64,000 nt of DNA from Alphaproteobacteria bacterium. Its GTDB lineage: Bacteria > Pseudomonadota > Alphaproteobacteria > Rhizobiales > Rhizobiaceae. The stretch lies in the NCBI GenBank assembly GCA_018823835.1, contig JAHJHT010000002.1:1612001-1676000 (forward strand), read 5' to 3'. The stretch's first letter is position 1. Each line of letters starts with the position of its first letter. Below, piece by piece: positions 14,303-20,226 of this stretch. Both the position numbers and the translations under genes were made by a program. The notes beneath the pieces were generated by a model. The model was not told where the DNA came from and ran no database searches. It saw nothing but the letters and a program-made list of their open reading frames with translations.

Positions 14303-14668
14303 ATGGCCCAGGTAACAGTCACCATCGACGGCAAGGCCTATCGCATGGCCTGTGACGAAGGCCAGGAAGAGCACCTGATGGAGCTGGCGCTGCGCTTCGA
14401 CCGCTACGTCTCGCACCTGAAGGAATCCTTCGGCGAGATCGGTGACCAGCGACTGACCGTGATGGCCGGCATCATGGTGATGGACGAACTCTCCGAACTT
14501 CAAAAGCGGATGATGGGCATGGAAAGCGAGGTGGCGACGCTGCGCAAGACGCGCGATGACGCGCTCACCAAGGCCGACAAGAACGACGCCGCGCTGACCG
14601 GCGCGCTGGGCGGACTCGCGCAGCGGATGGAAGCTCTTGCCGAGAAGCTGGCGGTAAAGGCGGGCTGA
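14303..14668 (+). CDS. zapA: cell division protein ZapA
   Basis: 121-residue ZapA family protein. The N-terminal globular part (TVTIDGKAYRMACDEGQEEHL, split over residues 4-24) and the ALRFDRYVSHLKESFG helix match ZapA, followed by a C-terminal coiled coil. ZapA crosslinks FtsZ filaments at the division site in the cytoplasm. It directly follows the DUF4164 gene. In many proteobacteria the 6S RNA gene and a 5-formyl-THF cyclo-ligase gene follow zapA; here the next gene is a Prim-Pol-like protein, so that neighbourhood is altered. Confidence 0.88.
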   Translation: MAQVTVTIDGKAYRMACDEGQEEHLMELALRFDRYVSHLKESFGEIGDQRLTVMAGIMVMDELSELQKRMMGMESEVATLRKTRDDALTKADKNDAALTGALGGLAQRMEALAEKLAVKAG

Positions 14669-14828
14669 GGCGCGGGCGCTCTTGCGGCCAGACGGTTCCG
14701 TCCCGGCCTTGTCCGTTGTACCCAGGTGCGGAGACAGTTTCGCCTGGCCCGCTCACAGTTCAGGGCGGTCGTGGCTCGCCCCTGCCTCCCGTCCCTAGGG
14801 TGGCAGGCAGCAGGTGTGAGGGGTCGGT
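14669..14828 (+). other. 160-base structured spacer after zapA
   Basis: No ORF fits here. Several inverted repeats are visible: GGCC arms around GACGG/CCGTC near 14686-14709, CCAG/CTGG arms near 14722-14747, and a TGCC-CCC/GGG-GGCA hairpin near 14786-14808. The position is where ssrS (6S RNA) normally follows zapA, but I cannot recognise a convincing 6S sequence. It may be a 6S gene, a zapA terminator region or the leader of the next operon. Confidence 0.35.
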
Positions 14829-15470
14829 TTGCAAGCTCACTTGGAACAAGCCCAGTGCCTGTTGAAGAAGGGCATAGTCTGCCTGCCGCTGCGTGCCGAC
14901 GGTAAGCATCTCGACATTGCGAGAATGGGGTATGAGCCGGTTCACCTGCAGACGATGCGCAAGGACTTGAAGGAGCTTGCCTTCAACAGCATCACATTTC
15001 ACTTCGCGCAGAAGCCGCCCGACCATGCGACGATATCGAATTGGTTCTCCGGACATCAGGGAAACATCGGTATTCTCGGCGGCGCTGGCGACCTGGTCAT
15101 CCTCGATTTCGACAGTACTGCGGATTACGACGCCTGGTGCCGCAGGCACCAGGAAGTGGCCGATGCCGCACCGCAGGCGATGACGCCTGGCGGTTGTCAC
15201 GTGTTCCTTCGCCTGCCCATGCCCCTGAAGTCTTCGAGCATGCACCTGGGATTGCGGCGCGCCGGCCACATCAAGGCGCTCGGCGGCTACGTGGTCAGCA
15301 GCCCGTCGGTCGTGCAGGGCGAAGCGTACACCTGGCTGCCCGGCAGGTCGCTTCTGGAGGTGGAGCCGCCGATGGTGGCAGACCTGACTTCCGTTTCCCT
15401 ACGCCCCGTTTCTCCCATCAAGCAGGGGTATGACCGTCTCATGCGGCGCGGTTCGTTCGAGTTGCAATGA
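14829..15470 (+). CDS. stand-alone Prim-Pol-like (AEP superfamily) protein
   Basis: 213-residue protein resembling the bifunctional DNA primase/polymerase N-terminal domain with no helicase or other domain attached. Visible family motifs are KGIVCLPLRADGK near residue 15, NIGILGGAGDLVILDFD at 79-95 (catalytic-type Asp93 and Asp95), TPGGCHVFLRLP at 119-130 (His124), and GGYVVSSPS at 152-160. The acidic residue usually found just before this last motif appears to be replaced by His147, so polymerase activity is uncertain. The start is TTG 14829 after GAGGGG, because an in-frame stop lies at 14817. Its stop overlaps the next start (ATGA), so it is translated together with a glycosyltransferase. 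Its function here is unknown. Confidence 0.75.
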   Translation: MQAHLEQAQCLLKKGIVCLPLRADGKHLDIARMGYEPVHLQTMRKDLKELAFNSITFHFAQKPPDHATISNWFSGHQGNIGILGGAGDLVILDFDSTADYDAWCRRHQEVADAAPQAMTPGGCHVFLRLPMPLKSSSMHLGLRRAGHIKALGGYVVSSPSVVQGEAYTWLPGRSLLEVEPPMVADLTSVSLRPVSPIKQGYDRLMRRGSFELQ

Positions 15471-16420
15471 CGATATCGGTGGTGATCCCCGCCAGGAACG
15501 CGGCAAGAACAATCGGCCGTACGCTGGAGAGCCTGGCCCGCGACCGGCAACTGATCTGCGAGACAATTCTGGTCGATGACGGTTCCGACGACGGGACGGG
15601 GCGTGTGGCGGTGGAGGCCGCCCGCGGGACTGGAGTGCCGCTTCGCGTCATCGCCGGCAGGTTCGGCAGTGCCGGCGCGGCGCGCAATGCCGGGCTTGCG
15701 GCACTGAAGGGCCGCCACGTTCTCCTCCTCGACGCGGATGACGAGATGGTGCCTGGCGGATTGCGCCGGCTCTGGTCGACCTTGAACGCCGACACAGTCG
15801 CCAGAATGGCGGTGGGTGCATCGGTGCGGCGAACGGCGAGGCGCCCCGACAAGATCAAGCGCCCGGTGCCATTCGGCTCGGATCTTCGACAGAATGCCCA
15901 AGACTATCTGCTCAACAAGCGACTGCCGATAGCGGTCGGAAGTGCACTGTTCATCGCCGAGGATGGCGACGGCCTGCGCTTTCCGGAATCGATCGGTCTC
16001 GACGAGGACACATGCTACTGGGCGGCACTGCTGGCGCGGCTGCCGACGGTGGCGATCTCAGAACCGGTCCTGTTCTACTATCTCGACGAAGATCGCATGA
16101 ACGAGCGCTTCGTGACGGAGCCGCGAAAACTGCTAACCGGGATCGCGCGCGAGATGAACCGGCTCGGCGCATTCGGAATCGACAAGGCGGCGCTGCAGTG
16201 GCGCAAGGCCTGGGTGGCGCTGCGCATCGCGCGGCAGTTGATCATGTACAAGGAGTATCGCGAAGCCGCATACATATTGCGCATGGCGGAAGCGCATGCC
16301 GATTTTCGCGGTAGCTGGAAGGTCAACCAGTACAAAACGCGGATTGCCGCCGGCCTCGGGCTGCAGTCGATCGGTTTGCGGCCGCCAGACAGAGCGCGAA
16401 AGGCAGGAGCATCGAAATGA
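15467..16420 (+). CDS. family 2 glycosyltransferase
   Basis: 317-residue GT-A-fold glycosyltransferase. It begins MTISVVIPARNAARTIGRTL, with the nucleotide-binding VDDGSDDGT at residues 36-44, GSAGAARNAGL at 68-78, and the metal-binding DADD at 89-92. No membrane segment is obvious, so it is a cytoplasmic or membrane-associated enzyme adding a sugar from a nucleotide donor; donor and acceptor are unknown. It overlaps the Prim-Pol gene upstream and the GT4 gene downstream by 4 bases each (ATGA junctions), a strong sign of one operon with translational coupling. Confidence 0.9.
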   Translation: MTISVVIPARNAARTIGRTLESLARDRQLICETILVDDGSDDGTGRVAVEAARGTGVPLRVIAGRFGSAGAARNAGLAALKGRHVLLLDADDEMVPGGLRRLWSTLNADTVARMAVGASVRRTARRPDKIKRPVPFGSDLRQNAQDYLLNKRLPIAVGSALFIAEDGDGLRFPESIGLDEDTCYWAALLARLPTVAISEPVLFYYLDEDRMNERFVTEPRKLLTGIAREMNRLGAFGIDKAALQWRKAWVALRIARQLIMYKEYREAAYILRMAEAHADFRGSWKVNQYKTRIAAGLGLQSIGLRPPDRARKAGASK

Positions 16421-17616
16421 GTTCCGGCAGCGCTTCGCTACGGACGCTTGTCCTGACAATCGATCCGGCCAACCCCCCCGTTTCGGGTGCAGAACTGCGG
16501 AATTTCCAGAATGCCTCGGCGGCCGCCGAATTCGGTCGAGTGACGCTGGCCTCGATGCGACCCCCGAGCGGTGCGACACCTGACGCGCGGGTGGATTCGG
16601 TGTCGCTCGTCGTCCCGGGAGAGAGGCGAAGCCGGTCCGCGACGCGTCGGACGGCCGACATTGAGGTGCGCCTGACGCAGGCGGTCCTCAGCCGCCTCTT
16701 CGGCGTCGTGCAGGAATTTCGACCGGATATCGTCCTGGTGGAGGGAATCCCGCTCTTCCCCCTGCTTGACCATATCCGGCCGCTGGTGCCGACGCTCATA
16801 CTCGACATGCACAACATCGAGTCCGACCTCGCCGTGCAGATTTCGGGACAGCCAAGGCGTGGCCTGTTCAGTCTTTCCCGGCGCAGCGAGGCCGAGAATA
16901 TCCGTGCGATCGAAGTTGCGGGTCTGGCGCTCGTCGACCGTGTCTGGGTCTGCTCCAGTGATGACCGCAAGCGGCTGCTCGCCCGGTTCGACCCGAAGAT
17001 CCCCGTTGACATTGTGCCCAACGGCATTCCCAGAATCTCGCAAATTCCGCAAAGCCTCGAAGCCCTGCCGGGCAGAGCAGAAGGCTTCCCGGTGATGATT
17101 TTCGTCGGCCACCTTTCCTACCCGCCGAATGTCGATGCGGCCGCCAGGCTGGCGTCGAACATCTTGCCCCGCGTCAGGCGATCATTCCCGGCCGCCCGGC
17201 TGGTGCTTGCCGGCCGCTCTCCTGCCCCGGCGGTGAAAGACCTCGCAAGGCGGGATATGGTCGAGGTCACCGCCGACCCGGCCGATCTGTCGGGAGTTTT
17301 TCGCCGTGGCCATCTGAGCGTCACGCCGATTTCCGCCGGCGGCGGCACGAGGATCAAGATACTCGAGGCGATGGCATGGGGCCTCCCGGTGGTGGCGACG
17401 CCGCTCGCGGCGGAAGGCCATGGCCTCGCGGAAGGCGATGAGATAGTAATTGCGCCGACCGATGAGGGGATTTCGGAGGCCATCATCACGCTGTGTTCGC
17501 AACCCGAGCGGCTCGACCGTATGAGGCGTGCCGCGCATGGACGTGTCATGCGGGATTTCGGGGTCGACGCAGTCCGCAGGGCTGTCCGCGACGGACTCGG
17601 CCTTGGCGATGGCTGA
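16417..17616 (+). CDS. family 4-type glycosyltransferase
   Basis: 399-residue GT-B-fold glycosyltransferase. The N-terminal domain has PPVSGAELRNFQNA near residue 20 and DMHNIES near 130. The C-terminal donor-binding domain has MIFVGHLSYPPNVDAA, then GGGTRIKILEAMAWGLPVV and ATPLAAEGHGL, the usual retaining GT4 nucleotide-sugar site. It is probably cytoplasmic. It is the third gene of the Prim-Pol/GT operon; 44 bases separate it from the large two-domain glycosyltransferase downstream. The polymer being built is unknown; no flippase, polymerase or nucleotide-sugar synthesis gene is next to it. Confidence 0.9.
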   Translation: MSSGSASLRTLVLTIDPANPPVSGAELRNFQNASAAAEFGRVTLASMRPPSGATPDARVDSVSLVVPGERRSRSATRRTADIEVRLTQAVLSRLFGVVQEFRPDIVLVEGIPLFPLLDHIRPLVPTLILDMHNIESDLAVQISGQPRRGLFSLSRRSEAENIRAIEVAGLALVDRVWVCSSDDRKRLLARFDPKIPVDIVPNGIPRISQIPQSLEALPGRAEGFPVMIFVGHLSYPPNVDAAARLASNILPRVRRSFPAARLVLAGRSPAPAVKDLARRDMVEVTADPADLSGVFRRGHLSVTPISAGGGTRIKILEAMAWGLPVVATPLAAEGHGLAEGDEIVIAPTDEGISEAIITLCSQPERLDRMRRAAHGRVMRDFGVDAVRRAVRDGLGLGDG

Positions 17617-17660
17617 AGTGACACCCCGTTGATCTGCCGCTAGAAGGTCCAGTCGAAGCC

Positions 17661-19238
17661 ATGATCCCGCCGATCCTCCACCAGACTTGGAAGACCGACG
17701 AACTTCCCGAACAATTCCGAGCTTGGTCCGAGACGTGGTTAGAACACAATTCCGGCTGGAGGCGGATGTTCTGGACCGACCGTACGCTTCTCGAATTCGT
17801 CGGCCGGCACTACCCGGATTTCCTCGAGACATTTTGCAGCTACCCGAACGGCATCATGCGGGCGGATGCCGCGCGCTACCTGCTGCTGCATCATTTCGGT
17901 GGCGTCTATGCCGATATCGATTGCGAGTGCGTCGCTCCGTTCGATCCGATCATGGATGAGGACCGTGTGGTCCTCTGCTTCGAGCCGGCGGCACATTTCC
18001 TGCCGCAGATCCACTATCGCCGGCTGCCCTACATGCTGTTTAACGGCACAATGGCCAGCCCGGCGGGACATCCCTTCTGGCCGCACCTCATCACCTACCT
18101 GCCGGCGCTAGTGCATGCCAAGGAAGTGCTCGACGCGACAGGGCCGTGCGTCCTGACGTCCGCCCAGCTCAGTTTTGCCGACCAGGACCTGCTCTCTGTC
18201 CGGCCATGTGCCCTGTTCGCGCCGATCGATGCGAAGGGGGTACCCGACGCCTCGGTCGTGGAGGGCAGCGAGGACACCCTGTCCATCCATCACTGGGCGG
18301 GGACATGGCTGACGCCGCCGCGCCGGAAGAACGTCCTCAGCACGTTGAAGCGTCACTATTACCGCACGAAGTATAGGCTAACGCGCGGCGCGCAGCTCAG
18401 CCTGGAGGAAGCGAAATCGATGATCGATCCCGCAGCGCTGGAGCGCTCGCCGCCGGCCGGCGAGAACGTTGCCGTGATGGTGCCGCTTCGCGACGCGGCG
18501 GAACACATAGCGTCGTTTCTCGAAGCGATCGGATCGCTCGACTATCCAAAGGATCGCCTCAAGCTGGTGTTCTGCGAGGGAGACAGCCGCGACGGCAGCT
18601 GGGAGAAGCTCAACCGGCTCGTCGAGCCGCTGAGGGACCGGTACCGCGACATTGTACTCCTGCAGCATCATCTCGGCACGCCGCTCGACCGCAAGACGCG
18701 GCAACGGCCACGGCTGCAGCGTGTCAGGCGATCCGGTCTCGCCAAAGTGCGCAACCAGCTTATCGAGAAGGGGCTGGATGAAAGCGACGACTGGGCGTTG
18801 TGGATCGACATCGACGTTTGGCAGTTTCCGGCCGACATCATCCAGACCCTCCGGGAGACCGGCCGCCGCATCGTTGTGCCCAACTGCCGGACGTGCCCCG
18901 GCGGACCGAGCTTCGACCTCAACAATTTCGTGACGATCGAAATCGGCCGCGACTATCGCTATTACCGAAACATGGTCAAAGGGCTGCACCAGCCTCCCTG
19001 GGATTTCGAGGGACGCCGCAGCCTCAGCGACCTGGGTCACCTCGAGCGGGTGGAACTCGACGGCGTTGGCGGCACCATGCTGCTGGTGGATGCGGCACTT
19101 CACCGGGGCGGCCTGGTGTTCCCCGAAGAGCCCTACAAGGACCTGGTCGAGACCGAAGGTTTCGGCGTGCTGGCAAAGGACCTCGGCGTCAGGCCTCTTG
19201 GCCTGCCGCGGGTCGAGATATTGCACGTTCCGTGGTGA
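17661..19238 (+). CDS. two-domain glycosyltransferase, GT32 (OCH1-like) + GT62 (ANP1/MNN9-like)
   Basis: 525 residues in two catalytic modules. The N-terminal module (about 1-220) has ILHQTWKT at 5-12, RADAARYLLLHHFGGVYADID at 67-87 with the metal-binding DxD (Asp85/Asp87), and the closing IHHWAGTW at 209-216, as in GT32/OCH1-type enzymes. The C-terminal module (about 268-525) has AVMVPLRDA, CEGDSRDGS, LAKVRNQL, ALWIDIDVWQFP with DxD at 383-385, IVVPNC, LDGVGGTMLLVDAALHRGG at 466-484 and ETEGFGVLAKDLG, the order and spacing of the fungal ANP1/MNN9 mannosyltransferase family. No signal peptide or membrane helix is visible. It probably elongates a mannose-like chain, but sugar and acceptor are inferred only by family. 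Confidence 0.82.
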   Translation: MIPPILHQTWKTDELPEQFRAWSETWLEHNSGWRRMFWTDRTLLEFVGRHYPDFLETFCSYPNGIMRADAARYLLLHHFGGVYADIDCECVAPFDPIMDEDRVVLCFEPAAHFLPQIHYRRLPYMLFNGTMASPAGHPFWPHLITYLPALVHAKEVLDATGPCVLTSAQLSFADQDLLSVRPCALFAPIDAKGVPDASVVEGSEDTLSIHHWAGTWLTPPRRKNVLSTLKRHYYRTKYRLTRGAQLSLEEAKSMIDPAALERSPPAGENVAVMVPLRDAAEHIASFLEAIGSLDYPKDRLKLVFCEGDSRDGSWEKLNRLVEPLRDRYRDIVLLQHHLGTPLDRKTRQRPRLQRVRRSGLAKVRNQLIEKGLDESDDWALWIDIDVWQFPADIIQTLRETGRRIVVPNCRTCPGGPSFDLNNFVTIEIGRDYRYYRNMVKGLHQPPWDFEGRRSLSDLGHLERVELDGVGGTMLLVDAALHRGGLVFPEEPYKDLVETEGFGVLAKDLGVRPLGLPRVEILHVPW

Positions 19239-19257
19239 ATCCTGCGCTCCAAACGAA

Positions 19258-19285
19258 AACCGCGCCGGGATGAACCGGCGCGGTT
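19258..19285. terminator. bidirectional terminator between the GT operon and rpoH
   Basis: An 11-bp perfect stem (arm AACCGCGCCGG) with a 6-base loop lies between the convergent glycosyltransferase and rpoH genes. On the minus strand it is followed by TTTTCGTTT, so it serves rpoH best; on the plus strand the tail is not T-rich. Confidence 0.75.
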
Positions 19286-19314: not shown

Positions 19315-20226
19315 TCAGGCTGCCGGCTGCGCGTCGATGGTGCGCAGCGCCTGTGCCTGCCGCTTGGCGGCGGCCTTGACGGCGTCCTGAACCTTCTCGA
19401 AGGCGCGCACCTCGATCTGGCGCACGCGCTCGCGGCTGATGTCGAACTCGCCCGACAATTCCTCAAGCGTCATCGGGTCGTCGGACAGGCGGCGCGCCTC
19501 AAAGATGCGGCGCTCGCGCTCGTTGAGCACGTCGAGCGCGCCCGACAGCATGCCGCGCCGGTTTTCCAGCTCGTCCTGCTCGATCAGCATGGTCTCGGCA
19601 CTGTCGTGATCGTCGACCAGCCAGTCCTGCCATTCGCCGGACTCGCCCTCGGACGCACGGATCGGCGCGTTGAGCGAGGCGTCGCCCGACAGGCGACGGT
19701 TCATCGAGACGACTTCCGCCTCGCTGACGTTCAGCCTGGTGGCGATCTCGGCGATCTGGTCCGGCTTCAGGTCGCCGTCGTCCAGCGCCTGGATCTTGCC
19801 CTTGACCTTGCGGAGATTGAAGAACAGCCGCTTCTGGTTGGCGGTCGTGCCCATCTTCACAAGGCTCCACGAGCGCAGGATATACTCCTGGATCGAGGCC
19901 TTGATCCACCACATCGCATAGGTGGCCAGACGGAAACCGCGTTCCGGCTCGAATTTCTTGACGGCCTGCATGAGGCCGACATTGCCCTCGGAAATCACTT
20001 CGCCGATCGGCAGTCCGTAGCCGCGATAGCCCATGGCGATCTTGGCGACGAGTCGAAGGTGGCTGGTGACGAGCTTGTGGGCCGCGCCTGTATCCTCATG
20101 CTCCTGGTACCGCTTGGCGAGCATGTACTCTTCCTGCGGCTGAAGCATCGGGAAACGGCGGATTTCTTCCAGGTAGCGGCTGAGGCCGCCTTCGCCTGAA
20201 ACAATACTGGGTAGTGACTGGGCCAT
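19315..20226 (-). CDS. rpoH: RNA polymerase heat-shock sigma factor (sigma-32)
   Basis: 303-residue group 3 sigma factor of the RpoH family. Region 2 is shown by LVTSHLRLVAKIAMGYRGYG and FRLATYAMWWIKASIQEYIL, the RpoH box by NQKRLFFNLRK, and region 4 by ERERRIFEARRL and SRERVRQIEVRAFEKV. It directs transcription of heat-shock genes. ATG 20226 is chosen because MAQSLPSIVSGEGGLSRYL is the usual N-terminus; a 27-codon upstream extension is not conserved in type. It is downstream of rluD on the same strand; the spacer has an unusual inverted repeat. Confidence 0.95.
   Translation of the reverse strand: MAQSLPSIVSGEGGLSRYLEEIRRFPMLQPQEEYMLAKRYQEHEDTGAAHKLVTSHLRLVAKIAMGYRGYGLPIGEVISEGNVGLMQAVKKFEPERGFRLATYAMWWIKASIQEYILRSWSLVKMGTTANQKRLFFNLRKVKGKIQALDDGDLKPDQIAEIATRLNVSEAEVVSMNRRLSGDASLNAPIRASEGESGEWQDWLVDDHDSAETMLIEQDELENRRGMLSGALDVLNERERRIFEARRLSDDPMTLEELSGEFDISRERVRQIEVRAFEKVQDAVKAAAKRQAQALRTIDAQPAA

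Follow-up and report, generated by a model that had tools for sequence, protein, structure and literature searches.

A Rhizobiaceae genome encodes a single-domain Prim-Pol protein that heads a chromosomal cassette of glycosyltransferases (GTs) and belongs to a subfamily in which the third catalytic acid is replaced by histidine. Prim-Pols are known DNA enzymes. We tentatively propose, at what we judge to be just under an even chance, that the fold has been reused as a partner of the GT2 enzyme that binds a nucleotide or nucleotide sugar while surface glycans are assembled, and that canonical polymerase chemistry has probably been lost. The features on which this proposal rests are collected in Table 1; throughout, the window denotes the whole 64,000-nucleotide stretch of DNA that was analysed.

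Table 1 Features of the window discussed in the text (positions in the window).
Feature	Position	Strand	Remarks
zapA, left flank	14303–14668	+	PF05164, 1.2e-21
Four-gene cassette (Prim-Pol, GT2, GT4, GT32/GT62)	14660–19255	+	Inserted between zapA and rpoH; blastn against G038
Prim-Pol gene	14829–15470	+	213 aa, TTG start; first cassette gene; PF09250, 1e-15
24-residue insertion, residues 32–55	14922–14993	+	Alignment A2, conserved columns
Motif I, LDFD	15105–15113	+	Asp93 at 15105–15107, Asp95 at 15111–15113; invariant
Motif II, His124 (sxxGxH)	15198–15200	+	Invariant; alignment
Motif III position, His147	15267–15269	+	Catalytic Asp replaced; alignment
ATGA stop/start overlap, Prim-Pol/GT2	15467–15470	+	Sequence
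GT2, constant downstream partner of Prim-Pol	15467–16420	+	PF00535, 4e-22
GT4	16417–17616	+	PF13692, 1e-19; fused to GT2 (~700 aa) in most relatives
Two-domain GT: Gly_transf_sug (GT32-like) and Anp1 (GT62-like)	17661–19238	+	PF04488, 1.6e-16; PF03452, 9.9e-37
RpoH-like sigma factor gene, right flank	19315–20226	-	Name from sequence reading

A stand-alone protein with a Prim-Pol fold

The reading frame, which has the sequence GAGGGG upstream of its start, is a genuine gene and no chance frame, because full-length homologues occur in five genomes of the same family (38–52% identity) and dN/dS between members is 0.16–0.39. PF09250 covers residues 59–175 (59 bits against a cut-off of 22.8), the protein also matches PHROG primase families, and the genome contains no other PF09250 match. 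Pfam detected no second domain within the 213 residues, which marks the protein as a stand-alone single domain. Its AlphaFold model, computed from 17 aligned sequences, reached a mean pLDDT of 92.7 and a pTM of 0.89. Foldseek returned four significant PDB matches, each to the Prim-Pol domain of ORF904 (pRN1), with 1rni at the top (E = 2.4e-7, probability 1.00, TM 0.63–0.64). ORF904 was also recovered by sequence profile search (1.9e-8), and comparison with a viral library led to phage Prim-Pols. The predicted structure and the profile matches thus assign the protein a Prim-Pol fold. An earlier note had proposed this from three motif strings and named absence of structural similarity as grounds for abandoning it; the reading frame is as it described, all three strings are present, and both the domain families and the ORF904 matches bear the proposal out.

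The likeness to the ORF904 domain (PDB 1rni, 3m1m) extends to the fold, the positions of motifs I and II and the domain size. ORF904 differs in retaining the motif III Asp and in its fusion to a helicase and a helix-bundle domain, whereas the window protein has His147, the added stretch of 24 residues and neither of those parts. Chromosomal proteins of related alphaproteobacteria that combine Prim-Pol with PriCT_1 (L084, L086 and L087; the C-terminal PriCT_1 is shown by Pfam for L084) share PF09250 and the motifs, at 24–25% identity, but have a motif III Asp, are without the insertion and group in a clade of their own (support 100/99). The Bradyrhizobium bll5242-like family, a Prim-Pol clade family named after a rhizobial protein and mentioned in passing in PMC5862659, may also be related. 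In the Prim-Pol tree the window protein belongs to a distinct stand-alone subfamily, split from the outgroup with 100/99 support, within which the branching is not resolved.

Motif III carries a conserved histidine

Alignment A2 comprised 13 subfamily members, the window included, and four other Prim-Pols as outgroup; duplicates and the truncated L072 had been removed, and the 5' end of L066 is cut by a contig edge. Motif I agrees with the hhhDhD/E pattern as ILDFD, D93 and D95 being present in 13/13 members, and motif II (sxH) takes an SPxGxH-like form in which H124 is equally invariant, as is K26. At position 147, by contrast, 12 of the 13 members have His and only L071 has Asp, whereas all four outgroup proteins have Asp. 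The histidine aligns with the motif III Asp of these four and of ORF904, and the surrounding sequence reads GHxKAL in the subfamily versus GIDLRG or similar in the outgroup. The hD/E of motif III found in the catalytic Prim-Pol (AEP) superfamily is thereby absent from these 12 members. The residues Asp93, Asp95, His124 and His147 had been placed correctly from a single sequence, and the suspected loss of the third acidic residue proves to be a conserved family trait. Further traits of the subfamily are R143, S136 and the insertion, with the consensus AMGYxPxHxxTxRKxLKELAFT, which the other Prim-Pols lack.

Histidine is also able to bind metal. Since two His-type members, L070 and L073, moreover have no GT neighbour, the main rival to a glycan role is an altered but active DNA enzyme: a working primase/polymerase that uses His147 as an alternative metal ligand, serves DNA metabolism (repair, lesion bypass) and sits in a GT operon for reasons of regulation or gene order. 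The full conservation of motifs I and II in an intact fold, a His147 that is conserved rather than drifting, the Asp retained in L071 and the presence beside L070 of another Prim-Pol whose motif III has the usual Asp are all consistent with such an enzyme. We nevertheless regard it as unlikely. The motif III acid, of the form hD/E, is a defining catalytic residue of Prim-Pols, and a review states that mutating residues of motif I or III stops metal from binding and so abolishes catalysis (PMC10345425). For ORF904, the motif II residue His145 is reported to be essential (PMC3973330), and priming requires the helix-bundle domain (PMC8076596), an extra domain that the window protein does not have. 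Pfam detected neither a helicase partner nor a PriCT, zinc or helix-bundle domain, in cis or among the cassette neighbours (glycosyltransferases, zapA and rpoH); the earlier note had likewise seen no helicase nearby. The GT2 linkage, which is kept across many sites and in another phylum, also speaks against an active DNA enzyme.

The cassette is a discrete insert between zapA and rpoH

Blastn of the window against G038, a sister species of the same genus, revealed an alignment break at 14659 that resumes at 19256. In G038, zapA is followed directly by the rpoH-like gene, and the aligned ends lie ~80 bp apart. Nothing but the four genes was inserted or, read in reverse, lost. The terminator hairpin of the rpoH-like gene (19258–19285) is also present in the empty site, and no Rfam match explaining the zapA spacer was found. 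Within the cassette, the Prim-Pol gene stands first and shares an ATGA with GT2, as had been read from the sequence before, and GT2 and GT4 are coupled by a second ATGA (16417–16420). All four cassette genes have codon-usage scores below the average of the window genes; the values for Prim-Pol (0.07), GT2 (0.09) and GT4 (0.05) lie ~2 SD below the mean of 47 genes (0.23, SD 0.07), which fits a foreign origin.

Such an arrangement raises the question of whether Prim-Pol serves the mobility of the cassette or the exchange of glycosyltransferase alleles. That the insert consists of four genes and nothing more, that cassettes are found at several sites and also in a second phylum, and that close strains exchange GT2-GT4 alleles would all agree with this idea. 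However, neither an integrase nor convincing transposon terminal repeats were found in the window, the cassette has remained between zapA and rpoH across two genera, the catalytic triad is incomplete, and ordinary homologous recombination accounts for the allele exchange. We consider a role in mobility or diversification quite improbable.

Linkage to GT2 recurs across sites and phyla

A full-length Prim-Pol copy is present in 6 of 298 genomes of the family, and fragments in three. In the genome collection, an alignment query recovered 12 loci where a single-sequence query had returned nothing; most are from Mesorhizobium and related strains, others from Hoeflea, Pseudohoeflea and a Desulfuromonas. 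One further member comes from another family of the same order (G647). With gene calls in the relatives made by a simple coding-score script, GT2 lies directly downstream on the same strand in 10/13 members (window, L062–L069 and L083), a count that includes shared ancestry and does not represent ten independent events. The two genes are usually 5–15 nt apart or overlap by ATGA; the gap is ~90 nt in L067. The complete cassette is present in nine members; GT2 and GT4 form one fused gene in eight of these (L062–L068 and L083) and are separate genes in the window. L069 has GT2 only, and no GT partner was recognised for L070, L071 or L073.

The GT2-linked Prim-Pols occupy five or more chromosomal sites. 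The window and L065 share zapA-rpoH. The Mesorhizobium-group site is an exopolysaccharide region, where Wzy_C, Bac_transf, Poly_export and Wzz genes lie close by; for this group, site identity was deduced from gene order, and Pfam annotation covered L064 and L020. Separate sites are found in L067, L069 and L083. L067, from Desulfuromonas sp. CSMB_57, places the cassette in another phylum; this case is a single genome with a contig title that hints at the joining of assembly nodes. The locus itself showed no runs of N, and Desulfuromonas relatives carry 72–73% homologues of its flank gene.

The linkage of Prim-Pol to GT2 is not accidental. The survey of neighbourhoods that the earlier note had called for turned up repeated linkage, with GT2 directly downstream in 10/13 members, where a lack of linkage would have spoken against it. 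A decaying or selfish Prim-Pol that came to lie upstream of the glycosyltransferases by chance would accord with the loss or decay of the gene in several strains that keep the GTs, but it conflicts with purifying selection and with linkage conserved at five or more sites in two phyla. As the linkage persists over ~50% protein divergence, this reading is largely refuted and we rate it very unlikely.

No further close members emerged from class-wide and Desulfuromonadales-wide searches; a wide search gave a 6e-16 match within a 763-aa frame of G1133. Viral contigs contained no relatives of the Prim-Pol. Searches of phages and plasmids yielded distant primases only, so a recent origin from either is not supported.

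Three loci deserve separate mention. In Pseudohoeflea, the gene immediately upstream of the His-type L070 member encodes a second stand-alone Prim-Pol of 293 aa (L070:7046–7924; PF09250, 2e-10) whose motif III has the normal Asp, and the pair may act together. In Mesorhizobium tamadayense (L072:7902–8570), the Prim-Pol is truncated after motif II and the glycosyltransferases are missing. One Mesorhizobium strain, and no other, has a CAP12/Pycsar-effector TIR-domain gene (L068:6831–7757; PF10137, 5e-22) just upstream of the cassette.

Prim-Pol is an accessory part of the cassette

The Anp1 tree united all nine Prim-Pol cassettes in one clade (support 96/95), which also holds two relics (G131 and G217) and three cassettes that have no Prim-Pol (G267, G150 and G213). 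One gain of Prim-Pol followed by several losses is the simplest account of this tree, and the GT cassette probably recruited Prim-Pol once, in or near Hyphomicrobiales. Different stages of decay are visible: G131 has lost the catalytic core of Prim-Pol while its GTs are intact, in G217 GT2 is broken along with the Prim-Pol relic, and G085 retains a Prim-Pol fragment beside GT4. G267 and G150 carry the GT cassette at the same zapA-rpoH site without Prim-Pol. Together with G244, they have the same three GT families in the same order, GT2-GT4-Anp1, but no Prim-Pol. This pattern indicates that GT2 accompanies Prim-Pol in every cassette in which Prim-Pol is intact and can persist without it. Because several strains retain the glycosyltransferases after its loss, Prim-Pol is an accessory, dispensable part of the cassette. 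In four genomes of one genus (G306, G207, G142 and G346; L048–L051), only GT4 and Anp1 are present, with no adjoining Prim-Pol or GT2.

Where it is kept, Prim-Pol is under purifying selection like its GT neighbours, with dN/dS between members in the same range as for GT2-GT4 (0.25–0.30) and Anp1 (0.14–0.26).

Patchy distribution and repeated loss would also be expected of a module for phage defence or conflict, with Prim-Pol as the sensor of phage nucleic acid and the GTs changing the receptor that the phage uses, and the TIR-domain, CAP12-like gene that adjoins the cassette of L068 is of a kind with this idea. That gene, however, stands beside the cassette in one strain only, patchiness is common among surface-glycan genes, and PADLOC gave no match for the four cassette proteins. 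The defence-like component suggested in the earlier note thus found no positive support, recurring defence genes being absent from the neighbourhoods as well, and we hold such a module to be highly improbable. Roles in mobility and in defence are both less well supported.

The cassette product is probably a cell-surface glycan

By their Pfam domains, several GTs (GT2, GT4 and GT32/GT62) stand in one operon, which is the composition of a surface polysaccharide cassette. Genes for polymer export, ligation or priming are not at the window locus but lie near the Mesorhizobium cassettes: the related loci there adjoin O-antigen ligase, Bac_transf, Poly_export and Wzz genes. The cassettes of the Mesorhizobium group and that of Desulfuromonas alike have GT10 fucosyltransferase genes next to them. 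Comparison of L062 (1700–3250) with L066 further revealed that GT2 and the first part of GT4 are ~75% identical between flanks of ~97% identity, a drop that looks like recombinational allele replacement, as expected for exchange of surface-glycan alleles. The exopolysaccharide neighbours, the GT10 genes and this allele exchange together point to a cell-surface glycan as the likely product.

In Desulfuromonas sp. CSMB_57, the GT10 fucosyltransferase gene upstream of the cassette (L067:6850–7960) has a low GC content (~37%). Sequences of the type GGGGTCAT, in opposite orientation, stand on both sides of the block formed by GT10 and the cassette, and could delimit a mobile unit.

A proposed role for the Prim-Pol protein

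We tentatively favour reuse of the fold as a nucleotide- or nucleotide-sugar-binding partner of GT2; a binder of this kind had been suggested in the earlier note and is plausible. According to this model, a GT cassette would have recruited Prim-Pol once, and the two would have been kept together under purifying selection. With the third metal-ligand Asp replaced, two-metal polymerisation would be abolished or strongly altered, whereas the DxD, the motif II His and Lys26 would still form the nucleotide (E) site. Prim-Pol could then bind an NTP or NDP-sugar and, acting with GT2 or the GT2-GT4 fusion, deliver or gate the donor or modify a sugar-phosphate, with a variable cell-surface glycan as the outcome. 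The occurrence of His147 in L070 and L073 runs counter to a strict tie to glycans, the GT cassettes of G267 and G150 without Prim-Pol and of G131 beside a relic also weigh against the model, and a residual or altered polymerase activity is possible given the metal-binding capacity of histidine.

In a bolder version of the model, a DNA primase fold would have turned into a glycan-assembly enzyme whose centre, composed of the DxD and two His residues, serves the neighbouring GT2 by handling nucleotides on sugar-phosphates or NDP-sugars or transferring them there. This version is conceivable, yet we think it doubtful. In the searchable open-licence literature, no such sugar-nucleotide chemistry is reported for the Prim-Pol superfamily, and we found no paper there linking Prim-Pol with glycosyltransferase operons.

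If the proposal is true, it would represent an unusual reuse of a replication fold outside nucleic-acid metabolism, in GT operons. Annotation pipelines would label such proteins DNA primase/polymerase, and the name may mislead; position 147 could serve as a single residue predicting the loss of polymerase activity. The family offers natural presence/absence pairs at the same locus and a small protein with a clear partner, GT2. Taken as a whole, our analysis suggests that this Prim-Pol has travelled and evolved with sugar-transferring enzymes in soil and marine bacteria, and that a replication fold may have been reused there for the surface sugar coat.
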